DNA of 64,000 nucleotides from contig NC_061062.1 in assembly GCF_021917145.1 (NCBI RefSeq), forward strand, positions 9,601,199-9,665,198, read 5' to 3'. Every line of letters begins with the position of its first letter. Position 1 is the stretch's first letter. Positions 96-50,730 of this stretch are shown here, one piece after another. Made by a program: the position numbers and the translations under genes. The DNA comes from Hypomesus transpacificus (lineage: Eukaryota; Chordata; Actinopteri; Osmeriformes; Osmeridae). The notes beneath the pieces were generated by a model, which did no database searches, was not told the origin of the DNA, and worked only from the letters and a program-made list of their open reading frames with translations.

Positions 96-1279
96 ATTGC
101 CATCAAGAATGTTCCCAGAACGGGCTCGATATGCCAGGTCCTGCTCCAACTCCCTCATGTGTTCCAGGTGATCCCTGCGGACAGCTTCATGGATCAGGAT
201 GCAAGGTATGAACCATGGGGACCCGATGGAATTCATCACAGGCAACATACACTTATATTACACTTTAAGGGTGTGACCATGCTCCCTCTTGTCTAACGTT
301 GCTGTCAAATGGGCAATGCTCGGGGCATTTGGGATTTTTCATGCCATATAAGACGCTTTTGTGTAGTCTCCGCAAAGTTTGTAACGGAGTATGTATGGAA
401 GAGGTATTGCGATAAGGAAGGACGTAGTGCTGCTCCTCCCATATGTGCTCTTCATCAGCGATTTCTTACACAACATCATTTACAAAACCACAATTGCAAT
501 GAAGACCATCAATCAGTCAATCCAGCATGTTTATTTATAGAGCAATATGCCATCTATGTACATTGCAAGAGTTTCCATTAAAGACCTGGCTTTAAATGAT
601 ACTTAAATGATGAACTTGCAAAGACATTCATTTGTTAAGCTTTCAACTTTCTGTTTTCTTCTCAGGTTTCAGTTCTTTGTGGACAAGGTCTTCCCACAGT
701 TCAGGGATTCGGTCATGTCCCACACCCTGATCTACGTCCCATCCTACTTCGACTATGTCCGACTGCGCAATTACATGAAGAAGGAGGAGGTTAACTTTTC
801 TAGCATCTGCGAGTACTCCACCAAGTCAGAGGTGTCCCGAGCCAGGCACTTCTTCCAGAAGGGAGAGAAGCAGTTCCTCCTCTTCACTGAACGTTTCCAC
901 TTCTACAAGAGGTAAATATCTATTGTTGGTCAATACTGTTATTATGATGTCATACAATATGGCGGTAATAACAGCAATGCTCTGTTCTACTCTGCTCTTA
1001 TCGTCCTCCACGACCTACCTTAGATACACCATCAAGGGAATCCAGCACCTGATTTACTATGGGCTGCCAACTTACCCACACTTCTACAGTGAGGTGTGTA
1101 ACATGCTGCAAGCGGGGGGGGGAGGAGAGGAGGCCAGCTGGACATGCACAGCTCTGTACTCCCGCTACGACGCCCAGCGCCTTGCCGCCATTACAGGGGC
1201 TCAGAGGGCCGCTCAGATGTTGCAGTCCCAGAAGGCTGTTCACCTTTTTATCACTGGAGAGGAGGACAAAGTCTCGTGA
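96..1279 (+). CDS. utp25: UTP25/DIEXF small-subunit processome component, C-terminal part (3 last exons, 5' partial)
   Basis: Exons are 96-205, 666-911 and 1024-1279 (stop TGA 1277-1279). All junctions follow AG/GT and keep one frame, giving about 203 residues; the rest of the gene lies before base 1. The translation carries the family's C-terminal landmarks: '[16 protein letters not shown]', '[20 protein letters not shown]', 'SRARHFF', '[20 protein letters not shown]', 'YPHFYSE' and '[18 protein letters not shown]'. Utp25 is a nucleolar protein with a degenerate DEAD-helicase-like fold that works in the U3 snoRNP/SSU processome during 18S rRNA maturation. In zebrafish the gene is known as def/diexf and is needed for digestive-organ growth. 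A small Gly/Glu insertion (GGGGEEAS) is seen around 1113-1135. The assignment rests on remembered family sequence, but the match is long and ungapped. Confidence 0.93.
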
Positions 1280-1356: not shown

Positions 1357-2184
1357 CTGTAAATGGTATTGATCCATATCTGTTAGGCCCAGATTCTGTT
1401 TTGATATTGGTAATCCATGTCCTAAATTCACTGTTTTAAGGTTGTTTAATGTTATGTCTTTCTCCTGTTCGATTTCTGCTTTGTCACAAAACCATTGTTC
1501 ATAAAAAATATAAACATGTGCAACGTGTGACTGTTTCAGTTCCTGAATATGCCCTTGCAAATGTTGTAGAATACATAATCTTAAATCAGGTCAGTGTCCC
1601 TCTTTCCACGCCTGAAAAGAAAATACCTTGTAGCTTGCCATGCTAAGGATTGTAAACTGAAGTTCATCATTGCTTAAGTCACTGCTAAACAATCGAAGCT
1701 GATAGCATACATTTTGCAGTGAGAAAACTGACTGACAATGTTGTCTAATTACGGATCTGTTGACTAGTACTTAATTGTTATGTTTTTTTCCTTTTAGTTA
1801 ATAAAATATTGTCACAGTTGACAGATTAATCAAAGCAGTACATATTCAATAGAATTGTGCCCTTAAGAAAAAATTACATGCAGAATCTTTAAAATGAATA
1901 AGAGGCAGTTTACCAAACAGGTTAGTGCGAGTGTTATTTTTTCGAGTAGTTATTTTTCAATTGTGCACGTGATAGTTCTATTCACTGGATCCGAATATTC
2001 AACAAGCTGGATCAGTATATTATTGTTAAACTCGCTTCCCCACACATTATTGTTAATTATTAACGTATGCAATTGCAGCAATTGGCCAGCAGACTGCAGA
2101 CTGACGCTTGGCAAAACTATTTACGCTTTTCTTTAAGCAAAGAACATAAGTGAATCAGTTGCGGTTGAGAATTGCGGTAGCAAC
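1357..2184. other. Intergenic, utp25 to SLC7 cluster
   Basis: AT-rich sequence with no recognisable exon or repeat. It must hold the promoter and 5' leader of the first SLC7 exon (ATG 2185). I see no convincing TATA box. Confidence 0.5.
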
Positions 2185-2886
2185 ATGGAGGGTAAACCGG
2201 AGAAGCTGACTTTGAAGCGCCAAGTGGGCCTAGTCGGTGCAGTGTCACTTATTGCCGGAACCATGATTGGATCTGGAATCTTCATGTCACCTCAGTCAGT
2301 GCTGTACAGCATCGGTAGCCCCGGAGCCAGTCTGGTTATCTGGGCATGCTGTGGTGTCCTCGCTGTTCTTGGCTCACTTTGTTATGCCGAGTTGGGCACA
2401 GTTATCCAAGAATCAGGCGGGGAGTACATCTATATTCTTCGGACATCCGGCCCAGTAGTTGCTTTCATGCTCATTTTCAGCTCAGTCGTGTTCGTTAGAC
2501 CAGCTGGCGTGGCAGGAATTTCACTGAGTTTTGCTCAATACACCGTGGCACCTTTTTATCCAGACTGCCCCCCTCCACAGCTTGTGGTAAAGTGTGTAGC
2601 TGCCTCTGGAATTATTCTACTGGCCACCGTTAATTGCCTGAATGTTCGTTTCTCAATGTCAATTCAAGTGTTTTTTATGGTGACAAAAGTACTGGCCCTG
2701 GCAGTGATAGTGTTTGGCGGTGCAGTAGTGCTTATCAGTGGGGGACAAACGGAGAGTTTCAACGACTCATTTGAGAACACAAACGTTGGGATCAATCCTA
2801 TTGGCATTGCTTTCTACCAGGGACTGTGGTCCTATGACGGCTGGAACAATTTAAATTATGTGACAGAGGAGCTGAAACGCCCAGAG
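2185..2886 (+). CDS. SLC7 light-chain transporter, alternative first coding exon A (TM1 to about TM6)
   Basis: A single uninterrupted exon of 234 codons starts at ATG 2185 (MEGKPEKLTLKR) and ends exactly at a phase-0 donor, CCAGAG|gtaaac. The protein is the N-terminal half of a heteromeric amino-acid transporter light chain, closest to b0,+AT (SLC7A9). It has the unwound TM1 motif GSGIFMSP, the CYAELGT motif of TM2, the heavy-chain-linking cysteine in 'APFYPDCPPPQ' (TM3-TM4 loop), and the TM6 substrate motif 'GLWSYDGWNNLNY'. No stop or frameshift is present. There is no downstream exon set of its own: the next transporter sequence is exon B. In phase and by homology the exon joins the shared exon at 6951. 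It could be a decayed duplicate, but the intact frame and donor argue for use as an alternative first exon. Confidence 0.88.
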
Positions 2887-3940
2887 GTAAACAAAACGAT
2901 TTAAAAAAATACTAATTTTCATATGTCACTTGTAGGCTTACATTGATGAGATTTCAGCTAATCACAAACCAATGGATGGTCCTCAGTTCCTCGCACACCA
3001 GCATCCTCACAAGATCAGTTGTCACATCTCTGTAAACCCAACAGGCAGCTTAAATGTAGGCTACTGACCTTATACTTCTCTCTTAAGTAATTGAGTAAGT
3101 GCAATCTGTTAAGGTATCGGTACAGTATGTTTATTTTAGTGGCAGCATCATTCTAATGGGATGAAGCTCATAAACAGTACAGGGGTAAAACACGTGAGTA
3201 CAGAAGGAATACAAATCCAGGAACATGTTGCAGACAGCTGGACTTGTAGGATTGTAATAATTTACCTTTTCCACACTGACCCATGGAATCTCCCATAGGT
3301 TTACAGTCAGAGGCAGAACCTTAATCTTATCAAAAATCTGTTGCATGACTCTTCTTTCAACATTACTCATGAAACAAAGAAATTGCAAATATTACTAAAT
3401 CTAGATGTCCATATTTGTTTGTATCCCTAAAGATTTACCAGCTGTTATTGCAAACCTATTTAAATAAAGTAGTATCTCTGCACAGCAGAGTATGTAAAGT
3501 ATGTACAAAGTATGTACACAGTTTTATGTAAGAAGTGCACACTGCTACACTGCTACTTCCATTGCTTTAGTGCTTCAGAAGTCTCACCTCTGACCCACAA
3601 TGTACACGTGCATTCAGCCAGAGCAGATAAGCACTTCTTATCATGTTACTACATTCTTACTGTATATATATTTTTGACTATTTATAAAAAAAAATACCAT
3701 CTTTATTCTCTTTGGGTTATTGTTATTGCATGAAAGCAGTCCCTGGCAGAACATTTTGGATTAGTTACTGGAAGTCAATTTTATTTAAATGAACCTGATC
3801 ACTGATTGAGTGTGGTCCAAATATGTAATTATTAACTAACATAAGTCCTACTAAAGTTGTAGGACTGCCCATGCCTTGTTAAGATAATGATTACTCAGCT
3901 TATGTATTTGTTTGTAAAAAAACTATAATCCTAGGAGGAC
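2887..3940 (+). other. Spacer between alternative SLC7 first exons A and B
   Basis: AT-rich, non-coding and without any SLC7 C-terminal exon in any frame. That absence is what argues against exon A being a self-contained gene. It presumably holds the promoter of exon B; 'aggaggacATGG' gives a reasonable initiation context at 3941. Confidence 0.5.
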
Positions 3941-4660
3941 ATGGCTACTACTGGTCTCAACATGGAAAACAAAACCTCAAAATTCAGCCTTAAACGAGAA
4001 GTGGGGCTTACTGGTGCTGTGTCTTTCATAGCTGGGACCATGATAGGCTCTGGGATCTTTATGTCCCCTCAGTCAGTGTTGGTTAACATTGGGAGCCCAG
4101 GAGCCAGTCTGGTGGTCTGGTTCTTCTGTGGCCTGCTAGCCATGCTGGGGGCTTTGTGCTATGCTGAACTAGGAACAGTTATTCAGGACTCTGGAGGAGA
4201 ATACATCTACTTCCTGCGAACGTGGGGCCAAGTAGTAGCTTTTATGTTTGTCTTCAGCTTCATCATAGTCATGAGACCAGCCAGTGCTACAGGTATTGCT
4301 CTAAGCTTTGCAGAATATGCTGTGGCGCCTTTCTATCAAGCCTGCCCTGCCCCAAAACTGGTGGTGAAGTGTGTGGCAGCTGCGGGGATTCTAGTTCTAG
4401 CTCTGATTAATAGCTTGAATGTGCGACTGGCCATGTTAATCCAGATATCCTGCATGGTGACTAAGGTGCTGGCCCTGACAGTGATCATAGTAGGAGGTGT
4501 GGTGTTGCTATTTCAGGGGAACACTGAAAGCTTTGCAGACTCCTTTGATGGGACACATGTGGGTGTCAGCTCCATAGGGATTGCTCTTTATCAGGGTCTG
4601 TGGTCCTACGATGGCTGGAACACTCTGAATTATGTGACGGAAGAACTAAAATCCCCAGAG
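3941..4660 (+). CDS. SLC7 light-chain transporter, alternative first coding exon B (TM1 to about TM6)
   Basis: A 240-codon uninterrupted exon runs from ATG 3941 (MATTGLNMENKTSKFSLKR; a second in-frame ATG lies at 3962) to the phase-0 donor CCAGAG|gtatgg. It aligns with exon A from the KREVGL segment to the same final codon, but is clearly diverged. Conserved features are TM1 GSGIFMSPQ, 'AMLGALCYAELGT', the heavy-chain cysteine in 'APFYQACPAPK', and TM6 'GLWSYDGWNTLNY', which keeps the Asp that in b0,+AT contacts cationic substrates. A few read-through codons follow the donor before a stop, so the unspliced ORF would be a truncated transporter lacking TM7-12. It shares the downstream exons at 6951-9021. 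Confidence 0.88.
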
Positions 4661-5435
4661 GTATGGAGAGATTTCAGTCAACAAGTCTCAAGCCTTCAGT
4701 TTTTCTAATTCTAATTATTGTAGTAGCAGTCAAATACCTTAAATCTATGCTTGTACTACACCATAAATGTATTCTTGATCGTATTGTAGTACACATTATT
4801 TTTTTACAAAAATATTTCCTTGTTTAGAACAATCAAAGTCCTCTGGTGTATGCTTTCATTTGCAGTATTTTACAGTACAGTATTTGGAAATTAATTTTTC
4901 CGACTCTGTTCCAAAACCTTTTGAACCCTTTAGAAATTGCATTTGTTCTACAAGCTTCTTCAGTGTCTCATTACAGAAATCCAAACATAGTTTTAACTTG
5001 TCCACTTTTTAAAAACTGGATACATTACAAAAAGGGTTCATTTAAGGTCGTTTTATGTATTATCTGCTAACAGAAATAACTTAAATAGTAGTTTAGATTC
5101 TTTAAAATGTAAAATAAATTTCTGGTTTGTAGACTGAAAGTACAGAAGGTCTCATATGATATAATGTCTTGATCATTTTTACCATCCCAGATGTATAAAA
5201 CACAGAGTCAATAATCTTTACAAAAGTTTTTATACACTCATAAATAAACAAAGGATTCACAACAAAGTTCCACGAGCAATATGGAAAGTTAATATTAACT
5301 GCACAGGTACTTTGCACCTACAGTGCATTCAAATATTTTACTACGGCAGCTCCTCCTTCACAACGTGCTTCTAAAAGGAATAATCTGCCTTTGTCATTGT
5401 CAAAGAAGAGTTTGTTTAAAGAAAGCTATATAGTC
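4661..5435 (+). other. Spacer between alternative SLC7 first exons B and C
   Basis: AT-rich non-coding sequence. No TM7-12 exon of an SLC7 protein is found here, so exon B has no private 3' part. It is a putative promoter region for exon C. Confidence 0.5.
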
Positions 5436-6146
5436 ATGACTAGCATGGAAGCAGATGGGCTGAGACTGAAACGTGAGGTGGGCCTAGTCAGTGCTGTGTC
5501 TATAACTGCAGGGACCATGATAGGATCGGGTATATTCATGTCCCCGCAATTTGTGCTGTATTACACTGGAAGCCCGGGAGCCAGCCTGCTAGTCTGGGCC
5601 TTTTGTGGGTTAGTGGCAATGCTTGGGGCTCTCTCATATGCTGAACTAGGAACCGTCATTGCCGAATCAGGAGGGGACTTTATTTACATCCTCCGAATCT
5701 ATGGGCAGTTCCCTGCCTTCTTTGCTGCCCTCACCTTCAATATTGTGGTTAAGCCAGCAAGCATTGCTGCTATATCTCTCAGTTTTGCAGAATATGCTGT
5801 GGCCCCCTTTTTCTTGGGTTGCCATCCTCCTGTGTTAGTTCTGAAGTGTGCTGCCGCTGCAAGTGTTCTAACTGTGGCAACTATCAATATTATGAATGTG
5901 CGTTTCGCCATGCAAATACAGGTGGTCTTCCTAGTGGCCAAGATAGTTTCGTTGATGATCATTGTGATCGGAGGGGTGGTGAGTGTTGGGCAGAGCAGTA
6001 AAGTGATTACAGGGAATTTTCATAATTCTTTCGAGGGTACAAATATGGGTTTTAGCTTTCTGGGAATGGCGTTTTATCAGGGTCTCTGGTCTTTTGCTGG
6101 CTGGTACAACCTGAATTATGTGACGGAAGAGTTGAAAAAACCTGAG
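5436..6146 (+). CDS. SLC7 light-chain transporter, alternative first coding exon C (TM1 to about TM6)
   Basis: A 237-codon uninterrupted exon starts at ATG 5436 (MTSMEADGLRLKREVG; a second ATG is at 5445) and ends at the phase-0 donor CCTGAG|gtgaga. The frame is open further upstream but has no earlier ATG, so 5436 is chosen. Conserved features are TM1 GSGIFMSPQ, 'AMLGALSYAELGT', and the heavy-chain cysteine in 'APFFLGCHPPV'. TM6 reads 'GLWSFAGWYNLNY': the YDGW of exons A and B is replaced by FAGW, so the acidic residue linked to cationic substrate recognition in b0,+AT is missing. It is the exon nearest the shared block (about 0.8 kb to exon 2). Use of this exon alone would already give a complete transporter of about 472 residues. 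Confidence 0.9.
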
Positions 6147-6950
6147 GTGAGAATGTTAAAAGTTTATTGATGTCAACTATAACACACTTTTAAAGTCTTT
6201 ATGGTTATTGCCTTGTTTTTGCCTTCCTCAAAAATGTGAAGGCTGTACAATATTTTTGTTCACAGTTTTTGTCAGGTAAGATCTTATGGGACAATATACA
6301 ACTTTGCTTTAACTTGCTCAGAAGGAGGAACTCAGTATTGAAGACGCAAATATTGCTATATTGTCCAAGTAGTATTCATGCAGCGAGCACCTTCATTTGG
6401 TTTGTTTCTGCACAATGTGGAAGGGGTTGGGTAGGTAGGTAGGTAGGTAGGTAGGTAGGTAGGTAGGTAGGTAGGTAGGTATGTAGGTAGGTAGGTAGGT
6501 AAGTAGGTAGGTACATTAGGTAGTTATACCTTCAGAGTTGTTGACTGCGCCTGAACATGTACAACTCTATACCTACACTGTAAACTAGCATTAAGATGCT
6601 AATAAGCCATTAAGATGGTGCTGAAAGTTATTGCTGCTTAAGTGGTAATAATAATACTGTATAAATACAAATGTGTTTTTACCAATACACTACCACTACT
6701 CTACTAATACAAAAAAAAATACAATTGTGCTACAGGACACATTGATCCGTACGGAAAAAAAGGTTTTTTCCGTAGTTCAAACAATGCAGGTCCACAGATG
6801 TATAGCGGATACAACATATTTTTTGTGCATGTATACACTATGGATTGAGAGTTTTTCATCAAAGGAAAAACACTTATTGTGTTCGCCTACCATTCCCCAG
6901 ACAGACGTGTACCGTACATCAAATAATTTGTCTAATATATTCTTTCTCAG
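6147..6950 (+). other. Intron between SLC7 exon C and shared exon 2
   Basis: AT-rich intron containing the (TAGG)n tetranucleotide array at about 6426-6514. It ends with the acceptor tctttctcag|gtcaat at 6950/6951. No further first exon was found in it. Confidence 0.6.
6426..6514 (+). repeat. (GGTA)n tetranucleotide microsatellite
   Basis: About 20 near-perfect copies of GGTA/TAGG, with a few single-base interruptions (GTAT, GTAA) towards the 3' end. Confidence 0.95.
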
Positions 6951-9021
6951 GTCAATCTACCCAGAGCAGTTATGATAGCCATCCCCATGGTTACTATTCT
7001 TTATCTGCTGGTCAATGTGAGTTATCTAGCAGTATTGACGCCACAAGAGGTTGTGACTTCCACTGCAGTAGCTGTCACTTGGGGGTGAGACACATTTTTA
7101 TTTTATCCATCTTTTATCCAAAACATGGGTTTTGATCAATGTGTCTCATGTTATGGCTGACTTCATTGTCCACTTTCATTTCAATTTACATGGTTAAAGT
7201 CTGACTCTCATAGGATTACACAGTAACCTTTTGGAAACAAGTCAAATGTGGAAAAAGGCCAAGCCGGAACATTACCATAGTTGATGGCTTTAGTTACTGT
7301 AAAGCTACCTGATGTTGTCCATGTCTTGACAACTAGTTGGATTGATTCAAAATTGCAAAACTGATTCAAGCACAGTATGTTTTGCTTTTTGCAACAGGAA
7401 CAAAGTGCTGGGTAGCTGGGGGTGGGTGATGTCTGTGGCTGCAGCTTTGTCCGCTTTTGGCTCACTTAACGGGACCTTCTTCAGTGGTGGCCGTGTGTGC
7501 TTTGTGGCTGCCAGGGAAGGACACATGGTGAGAACCACACACACTCTTATCTGTCTTTGTCAAAAATACTGTAGTGTAGAACTAACCAAAATCCAGAACA
7601 TGATTGGGACCCTCAAAATCCCGACAATATCAATCTTGAAATAATAAAATATGTTTGCAATGACAGAAGTGATGAAGTGCATTTTCTTGGAAAAGGACAA
7701 AATATTTACGAGATCCACTTCAACTAATTGTATTATTCTTCTGTACCAATACAGCAGTAGTGAACACTATAAATTACCAGAAACAAAATGGTTTACCATG
7801 TTCTGGCCCACAGTAGTATATTTCTTCAAATCGTAGTATAGTATAGTATTTAAATTTAAGATTCCTATATGTTTACTGTATGCACCTTCCTGCCAAAGCA
7901 AATTCCTTGTCTGTGCAAACTTTAATGGCAAATAAATCCCATTCTGATTCTGATTCTGATCAACAGCCAGGTATTTTGGCCATGGCGCATGTGCAACGAC
8001 TAACCCCTTCTCCGGCCCTGATCTTCACTACCGCCATCTCCCTGGTGGTTCTCATCCCTGGAGACTTCCAAAGCATTGTCAACTACTTCAGGTAGGAAGT
8101 AGCCTGATACACAATGGACTAGTAGCAGATATCTTTCCAATGTTGAGAAGAAAAGTATTATGCAATAAATGCATTTTGTCATACTGTAAAACCACCATGA
8201 AAGCAGATTTACAAATGTATTTTTCCAGGTATTTTCTTAATGTTGCCATTGAAATCTCTATGTTGTATATTTATATTGTCAGTTTTACCGCCTGGTTCTT
8301 CTATGGAATCACATTGTCTGGGCTCATCTACCTCAAGATCAAGAAACCTGAGCTTCCTCGCCCATATAAGGTAAACCTCCTAAAACCAGAGGATCAATCT
8401 AAACTATTTCTACTTTTCTACAGTGGAGTAAAGTTTAAATATTCTGCTGAGACGAGACACCCGGTGACTCACCATGTAGAGTGCATAGGTTAAGGCCTTA
8501 CCACAAAGGATCAGGTTTTGATTCCAGCTCGGCCCATTTACTGCATGTCATCCCTTCTCTGTCCCCCCTGCCTTTCCTGTCTCAAACTGTCACCATCAAA
8601 AATGAACAAACATAAAATGCCAAGTCGATCTTTACAAATAAATATGTTTTACTGATACTTCCAATTCTACAAGCTATAAAATCGTAAAATATATTTAGTA
8701 TTTTAACATTATGTTCCTATAATATTACATATTTAACTGTCTAACAAGAGCTGCTCCTGTGACATTGCTTTGTCCTTTATGTATATATAGGTTCCCATAG
8801 TCCTCCCCATCCTGGTCCTCATTGCTGCAGTGTTCCTGGTTCTGGCGCCTATCATAGACAACCCCCAGATAGAATACCTCTATGTTGCCTTGTTCATCTT
8901 CAGTGGCATTGTGGTTTATGTGCCCTTCATTCACTACAAACTCTGCCCAGGATTGTTAGAGAAGCTAACAATGTTCCTTCAGCTTTTCCTAGAAGTGGCC
9001 CCAGCAGAAAAAAATTTGTGA
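6951..9021 (+). CDS. SLC7 light-chain transporter, shared exons 2-6 (TM7-TM12 and C-terminus)
   Basis: The common 3' exons are 6951-7084, 7398-7527, 7967-8091, 8283-8370 and 8791-9021 (stop TGA 9019-9021). Phases agree throughout (0, 2, 0, 2, 0), and the first exon accepts a phase-0 donor, which all three upstream exons supply. They encode 235 residues: '[14 protein letters not shown]' (TM7), '[20 protein letters not shown]' (TM8), '[10 protein letters not shown]' and '[13 protein letters not shown]' (TM9), '[20 protein letters not shown]' (TM10), then TM11-12 and a short tail ending 'EVAPAEKNL'. Joined to A, B or C they give proteins of about 469-475 residues, the normal LAT-family length. 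The protein should sit in the plasma membrane as an exchanger, disulfide-linked to an SLC3 heavy chain. Among human genes SLC7A9 looks closest, but I cannot name the fish paralogue. Confidence 0.9.
8459..8620 (+). repeat. tRNA-derived SINE remnant (within last SLC7 intron)
   Basis: The head resembles a tRNA A box (ggtgactcaccatgtagagt), followed by a B-box-like 'caggttttgattcca'. The body, with 'ctgcatgtcatccc' and a C/T-rich tail, is typical of fish SINEs. The family name is not certain. Confidence 0.4.
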
Positions 9022-9343: not shown

Positions 9344-9379
9344 TCAGATGCCTTTGAGATGATTTGGAGACAATAAATA

Positions 9380-10361: not shown

Positions 10362-13300
10362 CTATGTCACTTCCTCGTCCTCCTCCTCTGGCAGGTTTCC
10401 AGGGCAGGGCTCCATGGTAACCACAATGCCCATGCCACTGCGGCCGAGGGGCATGTCTGTCACATACGTCCACTCATTTGTATCGGGGCAGTAGCATTCC
10501 ACACTGGACAGGAAGCCAGCCTGGTTGAAACCCCCTAGACACACACACACACATTTCATTGTGAGAAGGCTGAAGGACTAGCTAGGTCTATAGAAACGCA
10601 GTGTGAAGGTCGCGAGGAGACTGACCCAGGACGAAGATGCGTCCCTGGTAGACAGTGACTCCCAGGGCACTGCGGCAGTGCTGCATGGAGGCCACGGGCT
10701 CCCACACGTCCCTGCTCACACTGTAGCGCTCCATAGAGCTCAGCTGGTTCCTGCCGTCATAGCCCCCCACAGCATACAGATACGAGTCCACACACACCAA
10801 GCCTAAACACACATGTACATCCCATTACTTAAGATATGTTAGCCATGTACGCATGCACACTAAAGGACATCACATTGTTTTCTTCCTCCTCGTTCCGGTT
10901 GAACGTAATGTACAGTAGTTCTGTGGTGCAAAGTTAAATAGATTCGAAGTTACACAAGTCTTCTACGCACACACACATCTACTGTACTGAAAACACACAC
11001 ACTCACCAAGTCCGCTGCGTACAGAGCTCATGGGTGCCAGCTGGTGCCAGGTGTTGGTGTCAGGGTGGTACCTTTCGGCTGTGTTCCAGCGGTTTTGCCC
11101 GTCAAAACCCCCCACCACGTACAGATGCCCCCCACACGACCCCACGCCTGCCCCCAGACGGGCCACAGACATCGGGGACACAAACGTCCATCGGTTGGTC
11201 TCAGGGTCCCATCTGGTCAACCAACATTTCCAAATATTTTAGGTGGTGTACTTGAGACGTTTGCTCAGGACAATTATTAAGTATTCTACATTTGCTTTGA
11301 ATGTATCACCACTTCAAACTAGCTGAGGAAAAGCTCAGTGTGATATGAAAAGGGAAGAACAGGCCTCACTAACAATCACATAAAATAACCATCCATAAAA
11401 ACCTAACTCGAAGAGCTAGTTGAAACTAGCGGGAGAGAGAGGAGGTAGTTATTCAGTTTCCAAACAACTATTGATTTACATCTGCAGTTCTCCATGGGCT
11501 CTGAGACTTACAGATTGACAGATAACAGAGAAGGTACTGTATTCGAGGAAAATAGTAAGACAAAAGGGTAGCTACAGTACAATCAAAAGGTGATATCTAT
11601 TTTTCCAAATTATTTTGAGATTTCCCTCTAAGAGGTGATTGGTTCAACAGCTGATGCAGCTTATCTAATTTCTGTCTGCTGTTCAGCTGGGCAAAACATT
11701 CCCATCAGGATCCACATTCCTGGGTCATGTGTTCTAACATGCTGTGAATGTAGGCTAATTGTAGTAAGAAAAACACTTTCCCTCATGGTGTGAATATGAC
11801 CTCAAATGTAACTCACACACACACACACTCACCTCTCCACAGTGCTGTGGTGTGTGGAACCCTGGGACCCCCCCACAGCGTAGATGTTGCCGTCCACCAC
11901 CCCAACACCAACCCTGTTCCTTGGCGTGTTGAGCGAGGCGTGCTGGCTCCACTGGTTGGTCATGGGGTTGTAGCAGCAAAGAGCGCTAGACTCAGCGTTG
12001 TTCTGCAGGGACAGGTTCCTGCCCCCCACCTAGAGAACACACAGGACCCAACACTGCTCAGACTCTGTGCTAACACTAGCCTGGGGGTGGGTCCCTCTCA
12101 GTCCCTCTCTTTCCAACCCACTGTGTAGAGTAGGCCGAACAGCACACAGGCCCCCAGGCCGCTACAGGGGGTCCCCATGTCTGCCAGCTTCAGCCAGGTG
12201 TTGTTGCTGGGGTCCAAGGCTTCCATGGAGTCCAGGGAGTGCTGCCGGTACCTGGGAACAGGGCAAACATTTCAGACAGCAGGATAGGCCAAAGACATAT
12301 TGAAATATCGACAAAAACAACTATATAACTATAAACGACAAATGTATTCAATCCAACTGGAGAGCAGGATGAAGAAGTGTTCCTCCTTTTCCTTCACTCA
12401 CCCGCCCGCTACGTAGATGAGCTGGGTGCCACGGTAAAGCGTGGGGGGGAGGGGCTTCCTCAGGGCCATCTCCTGGAAGATCTTGGACAGGAAGTCCTTG
12501 CATGAGTTGGCCTGGGAAAGGGGGCACGCAAACGAGAGCAAGAGTGAGCGATCTGACATCTGAATGAATGCGCAGAAGAAATGACGTGAGAAAGTTTGAA
12601 TGATAACCAATGAAAGAAATGGGGTGTTTCCAGGTCAATGTCTTTAAATGGATCTAAAACCCCACCCCCAACAGTTCTCAGCCCACCCTCCCAGCGGCAA
12701 CATTTTAGGGACAGAGGAGGTGCCTTGCCTTGCTGAGGATGGGGCAGGTGAGCAGCTGGCGTTTGAGGAATTTGGGGGGCAAGGCATAGATGCGGACAGC
12801 ATTGAGGAGGGCATGGAGGTACTGAGCTCTCCCTTCCATATCCCAACCCACCCAGTCTGTACACGCCTTGTACACCTGCAACCACATTCACACCAACATC
12901 ATCATGCAATCAGTAAATGACTTGTGGAAGCAATTTTGTCTTGGGTTCCAGACATAAACCATCCTGATTAGTGATGACATGAGTGCTGTGTCACATGCTC
13001 TGAGACAAGGTTAGGAAGGAGCTTCAGGTACCTCAGACTCACACAGCACCTTCAGACTGTCCTGGCTGATCAGCTCCAGCAGCTGACAGTGAGTCAGGCT
13101 GAAGAACTCCTCCTCCTTGGTTACCTGGATACCAGTCGGGTCAAATAGCCACACCCCAGTCAGAGCACGACACACTAGGATTCACTTTAACATCTGTTCA
13201 ACATGACATGTCTGTGCTGCTACATATACAAAGTGTGTGTGTGTGTATATACAGCATGTGTGTGCTGGCTACCTTGTTGAAGTGTGTGTGGGGGTGTATG

Positions 13301-18199: not shown

Positions 18200-19260
18200 C
18201 GTAACAACTTGTATGAACCATAAGAGCATGTAGTTAAACAAGTTACAATTAAACTACATGAACCTCAAAAAAGTGCATGAGTGTACAGTAAAATTATTTC
18301 ACAGCGATTTAAATCAGTTACAACTAACCAACAAGTCTCTCAATAAGAGTCATTGTGATGCTGGAGGAAACTAACATCAGGTCCAGCAAATCATTCCTAT
18401 GTACCGTTGTACTCCCGGAACAACTGCGTCTTAAGCCTTTTCTTGAAGGTGGGGAGACAGTCAGTGTCTGATGGAGGTGGGGAGTTGATTCCACCATTGG
18501 GGGGCCAGACAGGAGAAGAGCTTGTGTTGGGACCGGGCGCTCTTGAGCGGTGGGACCACCAGACGGTTGTCAGAAGAAGACCGTAGGTGGCGGGTAGGGG
18601 TGTAAGGCTGGAGGAGAGACTTAATGTAGTCGGGTGCAGTCCCATTCACCGCTCGGGAGGTCAGAACCAGGGTCTTGAATCTAATATGGGCCATGATAGG
18701 TAGCCAGTGAAGGGAGATGAAGAGCAGGGTAACATGGTAGCGTCTAGGTTGAAGACCAGGCGGGCTGCTGCATTCTGAATCCTCTGGAGAGGGCGCCTGC
18801 TGGCAGACCGGCGAGCAGCGAGTTGCAGTAATCCAACTTGGAGAGGACAAGTGCTTGGACGAGCAGCTGGGTGGAATGCTCAGACAGGTATCTCCTGATC
18901 TTCCGGGTGTTGTAGAGGGTGAATCTACATGACCGGGAGACTGCAGCAATGTGTGCTGTGAGGGAGAGCTCGATATCCATGGCAACCCTGAGTTTCCTGG
19001 CAGAGGATGAAGGGGTCACCGTCGCAGATCCCAGGGTGATTGAGAGATCGTGGGAGATGAAGGGTTTGGCCGGGATGATGAGAAGTTCGGTTTTGGCGAG
19101 GTTCAGCTGGAGGTGGTGCTTGGTCATCCAAGCGGAGATGTCTGTGAGGCAGGCCTCGATCCTAGCTGAGATCCCCGGATCAGTCGGGGGGAACGACAGG
19201 TACAGCTGCGTGTCGTCAGCGTAGCAGTGGTAGGAGAAGAGTTGAGAGCTGTCTCAAGTT
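18200..19260 (-). mobile_element. 5'-truncated L2-type LINE (reverse-transcriptase part and 3' UTR)
   Basis: On the - strand the translation runs from 'CYADDTQLYLSFPPTD' (the YADD catalytic box at 19223-19212) through 'LNLAKTELLIIPAKP' and 'SCRFTLYNTRKIRRYL', then 'LDYCNSLLAGLP', 'LHWLPIMAHIRFKTL' and a final 'KKRLKTQLF'. These are marks of fish L2/CR1-clade LINEs. The frame shifts around 18980 and again near 18460, and the 5' part is missing, so this is a dead copy. The 3' UTR matches the copies at 22105 and 59110. Confidence 0.85.
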
Positions 19261-27325: not shown

Positions 27326-30300
27326 ATGAAAGCTGTAGCTTTGAAGGTGCCCCTGTTGTTTCTTGTGCTGATGGCTCCGAGCGCCCTGGCTTCCTCAACA
27401 CGTAAGTCTCATGAACATGTGTTACAACATCTGCAAAGACATGATTTGGCTGCATTATCGCCTTGCTCTCTCGCGTTAACGGCAGCCTTGCTTTAAGTGT
27501 TAAATTATTTTAACATTCAATGCAATGTAGATGATGTGAAACAACGAGAATACCACTGTAACGACCTTACATATAGTTTAAAGTAAGAGGATAAATTACC
27601 TTTATAATTCTATGCATACTGTATTCTATAAAATTAAAACATTATCTTAACTATTTCTTAAGAAGAATAAAAAGTAAAAACGAAAACACCTGTACAAATC
27701 TGCACTTTGGGTACCATTTGTTCATCTCCAGGCTCAAATCAACCTCGATGTCACCAATGTTACACGTTTTAATGGTGTCCTGGAGCTGGGGTCTGGTAGT
27801 AAAGCTCACTGGATGAAGCATGAGTTTGTGTCCAGTTACCAGCAGTATCCCAGGACAGAATAGGAAATGCTATTGAGAAACGCTCCCAGGAGGTTGAATT
27901 TCAACAAGTCGGGCCGTAATTCGTTTAACACATGGAGCATGGGGCTTCACGGACCGCAACAGAACAGTGACATCATTTGGTCGGGTCTTTGAGAATGTTA
28001 ACCGGGAGCTTAATGCACACTAAAGTAAATAAATTCCGTTATGCGGTCCCTGCGTGAAGGGCTGTGCTGGTCATAAGTGCCCGATTTATTTTTATTGGTG
28101 AGCTCATTGTGGCAGTGTATTCGAAAGACCTTAGATTAAGATCGAGATTCGATCGTCTGTGTGATTACTTGTTGCATAGTCTGATTGACAATAAAGTTAA
28201 CTTTGACTTTGACTTTAAGCATTTGTGTCTGCTCATTTTCAAGTGTGATGATACATTTATCATGCAGTGCTTGTCAGAGAACCTTGCATCATTTATGAAG
28301 TTGTTATTTATTACTGTATGCATAATATTTAGGCATTGATGGGCTGTAGTGCTTACTCAAGCCCTAAGTTTGTGTAAACTGTCTGTTCAAGTGGCCTACT
28401 GCATGTACAGTTTAACTTTATATCCAGTGGTAATCTCGATTACTATTCTCTTCTATTGTCTTATTCCTCGATAATCACAGAAACCACTTAAACACACCTC
28501 TTAAAATGACTCATCCTCTCTACACGAAAGGTCTGCTCTATCAAGTGCCCTTTGGTCTACCTACAACAACCTCCTTGACAACCAACGCCGGCTTGATCCC
28601 CTTTCACATGGCAATGCATGGCACAATGTTGCTAAATGTTGCATGACTTGTTTCAATTCCCTGTGCTACAAGGCCCCCCTCATCAGCGGTTCCACATGTG
28701 GTTCTTTTGTCCAGAAGACACGGGAAGCTTAGGCTAGCTTAGCTCAGGCTAGCTTTGAACCTCTCCAGAGCAGACGGGGATAAACAGCGCTTTAGAAGCC
28801 CTTGTCATAGCTGCCTTTCATGCACCATTGAAGACTGACAGCACCACTGCGGCTGGTGGAAACCACAAAACCATTTCTCAGCCTCACACCTCCAGTGGTC
28901 TAATACAGGGCTTTTAGCTGAGCCCCGCTGTGTGTGCTCCTGTCTTTAATGCTTTCAGGAGAGATCTCACAGCCTTTGCCCACCACGACCAGAGTCCTGT
29001 TGCACAATCGGGTGGGTATTAGAATCCCTTTGTGATGTCATCAGATAGGATGTCACGTTCCACAAAAGCTGCTGGAACCTGTCGAACGGTTAAACCATCA
29101 CCTCTCTGCTCACAGCGGAACCCCAGCAGACCTCCCTCTCTGAAAACAAATCATCTTTTACTACCCATTTCCTGTTGAGTAGTCGTTCGGCAGAAACAAT
29201 AAACACGTGTGATTGCGTCTGTCGTTGTGGTGTTGAAACAGAGGGCTTCACACCCTGGGCTTAGGGATTTTCCCAGCCTAACTCTCTTGATTGTTAAATG
29301 ATGATTGTTATTCAGCTGGATCGCTGTATGACTGGATAATCATGGCTTCCTTCTTTCTTCTCCCTGGCGACACACACACAGTCTCATAGGCAGCTAAGCC
29401 AATGTTTTCATGTAAATATTGATGTGGAGTCCTAGCCATATAACGTCTTCAAAAGAAAACACAACAATGTTTCTCCAGGAGGGTGGTGGCTCAATAGATA
29501 TGGCCCCAGGCTCAGTTTTGGTGTGTGAAGCACTCTGTGGAGGCTCAGCTTATCTTTCTCATCTACTGGCATGTAAACATAAGTGTGAATGCCTAACATG
29601 TACTACTTCATAGGCAAAGACCTTTAGAAAGTTACTTCAACACTCTTCTCTTCTTTTTTCACCTCTCCTCCTCTAATACTTATCTTCCTCTCCCCTCTCC
29701 TTCCTCTCTTCTCCTCTCCTCTCCTCTGGTGTCTTCCCCTAGAGGTGGCAAACATCTACCCCCAGGACCCAGCCCTGCCCATCGGGGCTAGCCTAACGGC
29801 CACCTGCTCGGTAAGCCCTGATCTGGGACTCCACGCCAGCAAGCTGTTCTGGACGCTCAACGGGCGGCGCCTGCCCAGCTCCTCCTACAGCGTCCTGAGC
29901 CCCACGGCCGTGAGCGTCACCCTGGCCCGCCTCCCTGCCTCCCACCAACGCTCTGGGGACAACCTGGTGTGCCACAACCCTGCGGGACACGTCCTGGCTG
30001 GCTCCTGCCTCTATGTCGGCAGTAAGACTTTGTCGCGTTGCATGCTGGGACACTGGCTAACAGCAGAGGGCTTAAGGGGTAGCATGAGCTAGGTGGGTTA
30101 TGTGTGAGAGAGATCTGGCCCCTCCAATATAACATAAACCTAACCAGAATTAACCAACACCTGGGCATGGACCTGAGCTAGTCTTGGCATTGGGTTAGGG
30201 GATGCTCCTTCCAGTTTGGCAATCTCCAGCAGATTTCTGTTCTGATGATGTCAGTGAAATCACGGGCTGCAGTGTTCAATAGAGGAGGAACAGAGAGGAG

Positions 30301-36968: not shown

Positions 36969-38982
36969 ATGGGGGAAGTGGTGCCCAGACGTCCAATCAT
37001 CGCTGGAAGAGAGAGAGGTCAGTCAAAGTCACCTGTTAAATAGGATGGACACCTGATTGACCTTGACTCATTAGTCATGGTGCGTCCACATTGACACTCC
37101 TCAGAGAGAGCCAAACAATAGACTGTGTCACAGTGCAGGGTGTCAACCGTTCAAAATTCAATGAATGATTATAGTGATTCAATGATGATTATATATATTC
37201 AATGAATGAGCATGTAGATGTATTTGCTCATAGACAAGAGAACTAGTGAATGTTTGTCGTCTAATCTACTGTAAACAGACCAGTTGTTTGCTTCTGTTAG
37301 GATTCATACAGTACATTTGACTGACAGCTCTTTACTTGTACATAAGATACTACTGCAGGGCACGCAATGCTGTAGCTTAATTTCTTTACATGACTTGTTA
37401 CATTCATTCTGTCATCGCCTTTGTCATCATTGTTCTAATCATCCTCAACTCTGCGTTGCTAGGGCCAGGTCCTGGTCGCTATGCTCTCCCTCCGACGGTT
37501 GGCTACATCAACCATGACCTCACCAAGCCCAGTAGTCCCGCCTACTCCTTCCACAGTCGCATGAGCAGCACCAGTGAGTCAGGGCTTTGGGCAGCGTCCA
37601 GCACTTGTGTGTGTATGTGTTTCTTACACCTGACTGCCCCCCTCAGATCTCGGTCTGGTCGATTTTCACATGTCTGTTGTTAGCTACAGGTCCGGTTAAA
37701 GGTACAGTACATATGATTATGCTCACCACGGTGTCCCATAGGAATAAACATTCAGTAAAACAGATCAAAAACAATCCATTCGACTGTTTATTCCAAACAA
37801 TAACAGGAAAGTCCCACAAAGCCCTGACACCGCCTGAGATCAAACCAAAACATGAGACACTGAGACAAGCCTGACTTAGTGTTAGTGGACCAGGCTGATG
37901 TGCTTCCCTGTTGTTTGTGTCCTGTATTTTGCAGTGGTGTCTGTCGACTCCAGCCCAGGACCACGGTACCACGTCGATTCCAAGATGACACGCTTCGGAC
38001 GGGTGGGAACCCCTTCCTACTCTATGCTGGGCAGGAACAAACGTGCTAGTATGTTACTGCCTATGTCACTTCATGTCATTCATGGTTCAGATCTCGAACC
38101 TGCACCGTGTGTCAAACGGTGACGTGTCTCCTCTTCCCCTTTATATGGCCCCACCACCACTCCTTTGTCTCCTCCCCCCTCCCTCAGACAAGCTGTTCCA
38201 GACCCCGGGACCGGGAGCCTATAGCCCAGAGAAAGCCCCGCCTCTAAATGGACAGCGTAGACCGCCCTCTTACACCATTGGCTCCCGCACGCGCTACCGA
38301 GCAGTGGACTTTGTGCCGGCCCCCAACAGGTACGATGATGGAGAGAAAGCTAGAGAGAGAAAGAAGAGAGCAAGAGAGCTAAAGAGAGAGTGACAGAAAG
38401 GGAGTTAGAGAGAAAAAGACAGAAATGCCTGCTTCTTTTTCAATCCCCTCTGTCCACTGCTTGGGATTAAAACGTCTGTTCCATGAAAACATTACTTCAT
38501 GGTGTTACATTGACTGCAGGCTATTCCTTTGACGGGCTCACCAGAGGATGAACAAATGAACAAAATAACAGGTTAACAAATGGCCCATGCATGACTGCAG
38601 GATGCTAACAGCGGCCCATGCTCTCTGTTCTCCCAGGTACACATTGCCTCACCTGCTGGGCTCCCAGGTGCCCCACAAGGCTTCCAGTGCCAGCTACAGC
38701 ATGTCCAGCCGCCGGCATGTCGGGGCCCCCTCGGAGGACCTGGCCATGACCCCCGGACCGGGCCACTACAATAGCACCGACCCCAGCGTCTACCTCCAGC
38801 GCCAGCCCTCTTTCTCCATGCAGAGCCGGACCCCCAGGCCCAGCAATGCGGCGTCCATCCCTGGCCCTGGCACCCACAGCCCAGAGAAGGTCCTGGCACA
38901 CCTCCCCAGGCCTCCCTCCTTCACCCTGGGAATACGGCACTCTGAGTTTGTCACTCCTCTGGTGGTGCACGTGTCTGACTGA
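36969..38982 (+). CDS. ODF3/CIMAP family STPGR-repeat protein (odf3l2-like)
   Basis: Five exons: 36969-37017, 37463-37573, 37935-38048, 38188-38329, 38637-38982 (stop TGA). Phases agree and the product is 253 residues, the usual length of ODF3-type proteins. The short first exon starts at ATG 36969 ([16 protein letters not shown]) and joins '[15 protein letters not shown]'. Repeats of the Pro-Gly-Pro type recur: 'SPGPRYHV', '[11 protein letters not shown]', '[11 protein letters not shown]', '[11 protein letters not shown]'. It ends '[20 protein letters not shown]', matching the family C-terminus. These proteins are ciliary/sperm-tail microtubule-associated proteins. Human ODF3L2 lies at 19p13.3, in keeping with KEAP1 and EBI3 nearby, so odf3l2 is the likely orthologue, but I cannot separate the paralogues by eye. 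Confidence 0.88.
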
Positions 38983-49914: not shown

Positions 49915-50730
49915 TCAGACCTGGGTGCTGTAGGGCCTGGTGACAGGGTACATGTCCACAGGGCTGTAGTAGCTCAGAGGGGAGGGGCCCTGAGGGGTTA
50001 CGGACAGGGGCAGACACACCCCTGGGTTGTCGTAGTGATAGGTGTGGAAGCCAAGACGCTCCCCTCCATTGCGCATGTTGTCTGTGAGTCCGGAGCGGAG
50101 GTAGCAGGGGGAGCAGGTGGGACAGTAGTTATGGAGGGGTCCTGGGTCCAGAGGCTCGAGGGAGAGAGAGGTGGAGGCAAGCCCGTCTATCCCAGCAGCG
50201 TTGCACACGTTGCAGGCGCTGTGGAGCTGGGACTCCCGCCCCACCACAGAGCCCATATCCACCTCTGATTCATTCTTTTTGCAGCAGTAGTACTGGAATA
50301 CAAGGCGAGAGGGAGACAGGGAGGTGAAGAGAAGGAGCGATGGAGATTGGGGCGAGAAAGGGGATGGAGAAAGAGACCGGATGAAAAAAGATAAATAATG
50401 AGGGAGACAGGGAGAAAAGAGAATGGAATAAAATACAACTTTATTGTCCGTCCAAGATGGGAATTTTGACTTTGTCATCAATTTCCATAAAAAATATCAC
50501 ATACAGATAGACTATCCAATTCACTTAATACATTCTATACATTCACTAAAAGCTTAACTCACAGCCAACCTCTACTCTGAGAGGTAAAGAGGTAGTGAGA
50601 CACAAGGAGACACACAGAGGCATACACACAGTGTTACCTGGAGCCTACAGTAACAGAGTACTGCTACAATACACAGCAGTATCACCGCGGCAAGAATTCC
50701 TCCAGTTATGACAACAGTTCCAGCTGTCAT
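49915..50730 (-). CDS. fam163a: FAM163A-like single-pass membrane protein
   Basis: Two coding exons: 50730-50638 (31 codons) and 50292-49915 (125 codons and stop TGA); the junction is phase 0 and the product is 156 residues (human FAM163A 167). The N-terminus [20 protein letters not shown] followed by '[14 protein letters not shown]' is the highly conserved FAM163 signature: one membrane segment followed by a juxtamembrane cysteine cluster. The tail has '[15 protein letters not shown]' and 'YCPTCSPCY', closer to FAM163A than FAM163B. It ends '[10 protein letters not shown]' rather than the mammalian STDV. The molecular function is poorly known; FAM163A (NDSP) has been linked to neuroblastoma growth signalling. 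A fish genome may carry two copies, so the paralogue letter is open. Confidence 0.9.

Follow-up and report, generated by a model that had tools for sequence, protein, structure and literature searches.

The DNA analysed here is a stretch of 64,000 nucleotides from Hypomesus transpacificus (NC_061062.1, positions 9,601,199 to 9,665,198 of the forward strand; hereafter the window), which belongs to a genome assembly of 437 Mb. It contains a light-chain gene of the SLC7 transporter family, apparently related to SLC7A9 (b0,+AT), in which three tandem exons for the N-terminal half are followed by one set of exons for the C-terminal half. The three exons, designated A, B and C, are intronless and free of stops, and each encodes transmembrane segments 1 to 6 (TM1-6) and is matched by Pfam PF13520. 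Each ends in a (Pro-)Glu codon at the homologous position, directly followed by a GT donor in phase 0. An earlier note on this DNA had described three intact single-exon reading frames for N-terminal halves with exactly this shared end, and both parts of the description hold. The exons form a tandem array of similar-sized units, with an amino acid identity of 60-72%.

Downstream of exon C lies a single back half (TM7-12) that opens with a phase-0 acceptor, so that the donors of A, B and C and the common acceptor all have the same phase. The earlier note gave only the outer limits of this region, which was resolved here into five exons with GT-AG borders, encoding 235 amino acids; the same exons were obtained in a separate spliced-alignment run. 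Reading past the donors yields different frames that soon reach stops (VNKTI for A, VWRDF for B, VRMLK for C), and the VN that follows the A donor matches the start of the back half by chance. The coordinates of all features are given in Table 1.

Table 1. Exons and candidate signals of the SLC7 gene, followed by other features of the window.
Feature	Positions	Strand	Details
Variable first exon A	2185..2886	+	TM1-6 half; 702 nt, 234 aa; phase-0 donor GTAAAC; equivalent of b0,+AT D233 kept
Variable first exon B	3941..4660	+	TM1-6 half; 720 nt, 240 aa; phase-0 donor GTATGG; equivalent of b0,+AT D233 kept
Variable first exon C	5436..6146	+	TM1-6 half; 711 nt, 237 aa; phase-0 donor GTGAGA; Ala at D233 and Tyr at N236 equivalents
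Common exon 1	6951..7084	+	phase-0 acceptor
Common exon 2	7398..7527	+	
Common exon 3	7967..8091	+	
Common exon 4	8283..8370	+	
Common exon 5	8791..9021	+	includes stop codon
Possible common poly(A) signal AATAAA	9338..9343	+	motif only; second AATAAA at 9372
HNF1 consensus GTTAATNATTAAC	2052..2064	+	0 mismatches; 121-133 bases before A ATG
HNF1-like site	3824..3836	+	2 mismatches; 105-117 bases before B ATG
Two abutting perfect HNF1 half-sites GTTAATATTAAC	5288..5299	+	usual spacer base absent; 137-148 bases before C ATG
(GGTA)21 array	6430..6513		between exon C and common exons
UTP25, C-terminal-domain exon	607..915		
Kelch gene, kelch-repeat exons	10588..11238	-	
RVT_1 fragment	18744..19253	-	
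Lep_receptor_Ig domain	29628..30089		
SHIPPO-rpt repeats	38569..38979		
FAM163 family exon	49915..50493	-	

A lax tblastn search of the window with the back half returned its own five exons and 27 other matches, all with E values of 1.8 or worse. Two of the 27 sit within exons B and C, and none was found in the intervals between A and B (1054 bases) and between B and C (775 bases), which agrees with the earlier statement that nothing resembling a C-terminal exon lies between the first exons. The search was extended to the whole genome, where only the best candidates were scored and the match lists are lower bounds. With exon B DNA, only A, B and C were among the matches listed (at least 3). 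The A protein detected the three exons first, and after them parts of further SLC7 genes with an identity of 55% or less (at least 26 matches), while the back half detected its own five exons, followed by other SLC7 pieces with 28-60% identity (at least 40 matches). A close second back half, if present, should have ranked high in this search; none was among the matches listed for the 437-Mb assembly, nor was one seen in the window.

These results also bear on the explanation that the layout is an assembly artefact, with the back halves of A and B missing from the assembly, a danger that the earlier note had raised as a gap or misassembly. The assembly is in 376 contigs, which leaves some room for such a loss, but the window contains no N, the genome-wide lists hold no second close back half, and A, B and C are too diverged for the collapse of whole tandem units. 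An artefact of this kind is extremely unlikely. Since the three exons differ at 28-40% of residues, they are not uncollapsed haplotypes either. When the flanks (the region before A and each of the three introns) were compared with each other by blastn, the 30 best rows were only 11-36 bases long (best E value 0.095), and there is thus no sign of duplicated flanks.

In the protein obtained by joining A to the back half, residues 4-467 align with residues 20-484 of human b0,+AT (E value 5e-151, 507 bits) without a gap across the junction, and human b0,+AT was its best match among solved structures. This full-length alignment of the A form with a solved light chain is that expected of an SLC7 light chain of the heteromeric amino acid transporters. 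The cysteine that bonds the heavy chain (Cys144 equivalent, between TM3 and TM4) is kept in A, B and C. Unrooted trees of the N-half, the back half and the full protein were built with 10/11 other SLC7 loci of the genome and three sequences from the solved-structure search; locus L024 (C14, LAT-like), whose model covers the N-half only and continues into L037, was used neither for the trees nor for the splice-site sets. In all three trees human b0,+AT and locus L027 (C284) join first, with an ultrafast bootstrap value (UFBoot) of 100. The remaining light chains form a separate group (UFBoot 100), and the window gene is placed with SLC7A9 where the branch is resolved. Rooting among the remaining light chains would make SLC7A9 and the window gene sisters. 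By plain identity, exons B and C and the back half are nearer to b0,+AT than to a consensus xCT construct from the PDB.

L027 appears to be the genome's own SLC7A9. That the window gene is itself an SLC7A9 orthologue was considered and rejected: it falls outside the pair of b0,+AT and L027 (UFBoot 100), only one of its five intron positions (394/0, see below) is in common with L027, and the C-terminal VPP motif is altered, with EVAPAE instead of EVVPPE. The strongest PF13520 match beyond the window, L002 (C24), was set aside as a CAT/SLC7A14-type gene, which we take it to be. For zebrafish, Ellingsen et al. (2021, PMC8478756) list a single slc7a9 and leave one further SLC7 gene unassigned (zmp:0000001267, chromosome 17). 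SLC7A15 (arpAT) is also described as b0,+AT-like (PMC4127817).

Amino acid identities among the three exons are 71.7% (A-B), 59.7% (A-C) and 60.1% (B-C), compared to 41, 36 and 44% at third codon positions and 38.5, 35.0 and 48.1% at fourfold sites, where 25% is expected by chance. As pairwise dS (synonymous divergence) is saturated for A-B and A-C, a likelihood codon model with three branches was applied instead. It gave a ratio of nonsynonymous to synonymous rates (omega) of 0.065 overall and of 0.049, 0.089 and 0.098 for A, B and C, these branch values being averages along long, near-saturated branches that are compatible with a very recent loss of function. A value of omega = 1 was rejected for every branch (likelihood-ratio statistics of 7.08 for A, 5.64 for B and 12.13 for C, each reached by 0 of 80 null simulations). 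The near-saturated synonymous sites, the low omega and the rejection of omega = 1 together indicate that all three exons are old and under selection at the protein level. The earlier note had regarded a dN/dS near 1 in A and B as evidence against a cluster, and neither branch behaves in this way. None of the exons has acquired a stop or frameshift or lost its start or donor, and A and B each keep 42, and C keeps 39, of the 46 columns that are invariant across 13 other SLC7 sequences.

The same data speak to a second explanation, in which only C works with the common exons, and A and B are dying remnants of tandem copies whose back halves were recently lost. Exon C does adjoin the common exons, its donor scores highest, two deletions could produce the present map, and the averaging of constraint over long branches leaves a very recent loss compatible with the omega values. 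It must be set against this that A and B are constrained on their own branches and have kept an intact frame, start, donor and most invariant residues, that no relic of a back half lies in the 1054- and 775-base intervals, and that two independent deletions must both have cut at an exon end. We consider this explanation unlikely.

Distances in the N-half tree are 0.45 substitutions per site for A and B and about 0.77 for A and C, compared to 0.48 for human b0,+AT and L027; among the other SLC7 pairs of the genome, the two closest have N-half identities of 86 and 79.5%. Judged from these distances, the duplications would be very old unless the exons evolve fast, and the array is then predicted to occur across many fish. 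Support for the order in which A, B and C branched is weak (UFBoot 61 and 64). When viral contigs were scanned for exon B, 11 pattern matches appeared, none of which was confirmed.

Splice sites were scored against 76 SLC7 sites of this genome, taken at recurrent positions only. The donors of A, B and C rank 26, 13 and 73 among the 76 (C scoring highest of the three), all within the range of the reference set, and each outscores every other GT within 60 bases. Before C, an acceptor-like site (position 5324, score 7.3) permits a 5' noncoding exon; joined to A or B, it would break the reading frame. The presence of donors in phase with the common acceptor in all three exons argues against a third explanation, in which A and B are separate half transporters of six transmembrane segments that end within the intron and perhaps regulate the full-length form. 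In-frame stops do close the frames 18 (A) and 48 (B) bases past the donors, and AATAAA motifs occur at 3463, 5113 and 5243, but this motif is common in the AT-rich DNA of this region (11 in 8.4 kb), and we know of no half transporters in SLC7. Such a role for A and B is highly unlikely.

The regions upstream of the three exons were examined for HNF1 sites, scored against what we take to be the HNF1 consensus. None of 1000 Markov resamples of the sequence upstream of A contained a site as good as the perfect one found there. The site before B is marginal, with P values from 0.036 (200 bases) to 0.066 (300 bases). Before C, the paired half-sites are a non-standard site whose pattern was picked post hoc, and the best standard 13-mer has 4 mismatches (P 0.74-0.91). 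In the whole window, 7 sites have at most two mismatches, compared to 2.65 expected, and 2 of 100 shuffles reached 7. Slc7a9 is listed among HNF1B candidate targets (PMC10103355), and another source calls it a known HNF1B target and reports its renal expression as unaffected in Hnf1a-deficient mice (PMC8126479).

The introns of the window gene point to a history of its own. Expressed as residue and phase in A-protein coordinates, with the far C-terminal models of several paralogues ending in short doubtful exons, introns were found at 144/1, 235/2, 277/0, 311/2, 344/0 and 394/0 in all ten complete SLC7 light-chain models of the genome. Those of the window gene lie at 235/0, 279/2, 323/0, 364/2 and 394/0, with none in the N-half. 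Only 394/0 is common to both, the intron at 235 being two bases and that at 279 eight bases off, and four of the five positions are thus unused by the ten models. The earlier note had proposed duplication at the exon level after intron loss; the intronless N-half fits this, while loss alone does not account for the four back-half introns at unused positions. It is possible that an intron-poor ancestor gained introns, followed, perhaps, by two duplications of the first exon together with its donor. A precedent for intron gain, and even for coincidence of sites, is provided by slc26a1, for which Torii et al. (2025, PMC12357937) describe five introns gained in the ancestor of Eurypterygii, some of them at or very near positions where other members of the family have introns.

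The position of the junction is relevant to substrate binding. The unwound stretches of b0,+AT comprise residues 44-48 in TM1 and 233-237 in TM6 (PMC9110406), and as the locus is split after TM6, both fall within the variable exon. The TM6 stretch reads W-S-Y-D-G-W-N in A and B and W-S-F-A-G-W-Y in C, so that the acidic residue equivalent to D233 is present in A and B and replaced by Ala in C. According to the mutant data reported for b0,+AT, ornithine uptake is lost in D233G, D233I and D233S, tyrosine uptake is kept by D233S, and cystine uptake is kept by D233S and largely by D233G (PMC9110406). On this basis A and B should carry cationic amino acids as well as neutral ones and C should not, being predicted to carry neutral amino acids and perhaps cystine, barring a substitute residue. 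The earlier note had suggested that the substrate-binding half would be interchangeable; the difference at D233 gives a concrete residue basis to the part of that suggestion that concerns a change in selectivity. The VPP motif, which reads VAP at the C-terminus of the back half, has been linked to trafficking (PMC8478756).

Taken together, the anatomy of the locus, the single back half in the assembly and the constraint on each exon support its interpretation as an SLC7 variable-first-exon cluster adjoining SLC7A9 in kinship, whose first exons would have their own promoters and be alternatively spliced to the common exons. We assign this reading a probability of about 0.82. In the proposed mechanism, A, B and C would each be transcribed from a promoter just upstream, and the chosen first exon would be spliced in frame (phase 0) to the five common exons, with any intervening first exons skipped. 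The products would be three transporters with 12 transmembrane segments (469, 475 and 472 residues), sharing TM7-12 and differing in TM1-6. As TM1-6 carries both unwound substrate-binding stretches and the cysteine bonding the heavy chain, the choice of promoter would set selectivity.

Several observations weigh against this interpretation. The case for a cluster comes from genomic DNA. The HNF1 signal is strong for A only, 12-mers with at most one mismatch to the C pattern occurred in 13 of 100 whole-window shuffles, and two-mismatch sites were present in 4 of 9 other SLC7 stretches scanned, none of which had a better one. The score of the common acceptor at 6951 is low (rank 3 of 76), but so are those of three of the gene's other four acceptors (the four low ranks being 3, 2, 1 and 2), which may be a sign that introns were gained late. 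The (GGTA)21 array preceding the common exons contains donor-like words with GT. With regard to kinship, the A half is 51.8% identical to the consensus xCT construct, compared to 48.5% for human b0,+AT. Finally, the b0,+AT double mutants D233S/N236D and D233V/N236D are reported to have lost all transport (PMC9110406), and C is altered at both positions, yet its residue at 236 is Tyr and not Asp, and it has many other differences.

Variable-first-exon arrays are already known for adhesion, detoxification and glycan-branching genes. The earlier note knew of no SLC7 locus built in this way, and none was found in the open-access literature of PubMed Central, though automated fish annotations may already show such isoforms. 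A wider proposal, that this is the first membrane transporter organised as a variable-first-exon cluster, in which promoter choice in kidney and gut gives the cationic-capable A and B forms and the neutral-only C form, and that the array is shared by many fish, stands in our view at even odds. If the cluster is real, a single membrane fold can have one of its halves exchanged and the other held constant, which would provide a natural series of half-swaps for the APC fold. It would also raise the questions of which TM1-6 residues set cationic versus neutral transport, how three halves can all fit the same partner half and the same heavy chain, and by what route intron gain can lead to first-exon duplication.

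The upstream neighbour of the gene is UTP25, represented by an exon for its C-terminal domain (Pfam Utp25_C) that had no match in a PDB search, and the downstream neighbour is a kelch gene of the KEAP1/KLHL20 type. Elsewhere in the window, Pfam identified an RVT_1 fragment (24 bits, below the cut-off), which is likely a retroelement relic, a leptin-receptor-type Ig-like domain (Lep_receptor_Ig), perhaps from a cytokine receptor gene, and sperm-tail PG-rich repeats (SHIPPO-rpt). An exon of the FAM163 family was also found. A search of Rfam gave no match at gathering thresholds.

The relationship of the locus to known systems can be considered from both sides, its exon layout and its family. The variable-first-exon genes named in PMC1885805 are protocadherin, UGT, plectin, NOS1, the glucocorticoid receptor and GCNT2, with no transporter among those named there. 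The clustered protocadherins alpha and gamma resemble the present locus in their layout of variable first exons before constant ones; in the protocadherins the first exons have their own promoters and are joined to the constant exons (PMC1885805, PMC2819257). Unlike in protocadherins, the three exons described here vary a transport site. SLC7A9 itself is similar in sequence (48-52% identity to the human protein in both halves, with the same heavy-chain cysteine) and differs in its intron positions and in having VPP in place of VAP, and it lacks the three first halves of the window gene. In SLC12A1 (NKCC2), three alternative cassette exons, A, B and F, tune transport along the nephron; these are internal cassettes of a short stretch and not first exons. 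SLC7A15 (arpAT) is an SLC7 light chain near b0,+AT that carries neutral amino acids and is found in the intestine, and its description in PMC4127817 mentions no first-exon array. The CAT-2A and CAT-2B isoforms of SLC7A2 likewise come from one SLC7 gene and differ in affinity and tissue, but their affinity difference is placed in the intracellular region between TM8 and TM9 (PMC5803215), whereas the window locus would swap the whole TM1-6 half.

The closest parallel is offered by UGT1, Ugt2a and the zebrafish Ugt1a and 1b clusters, in which similar-sized tandem exons for the substrate-recognising N-half also precede one constant set (PMC1885805, PMC2819257). Separate splicing in the zebrafish clusters was demonstrated by cloned cDNAs (PMC2819257), whereas for the SLC7 locus it is predicted from genomic DNA. 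For zebrafish Ugt5a, a single 5' noncoding exon shared by mutually exclusive coding exons has been reported, an arrangement that would imply another mechanism than private promoters. The UGTs are, moreover, enzymes with two Rossmann-fold domains, of which the N-terminal one is variable. In the SLC7 locus the split falls within one membrane fold, after TM6, and each variable half must therefore pack against the common half.

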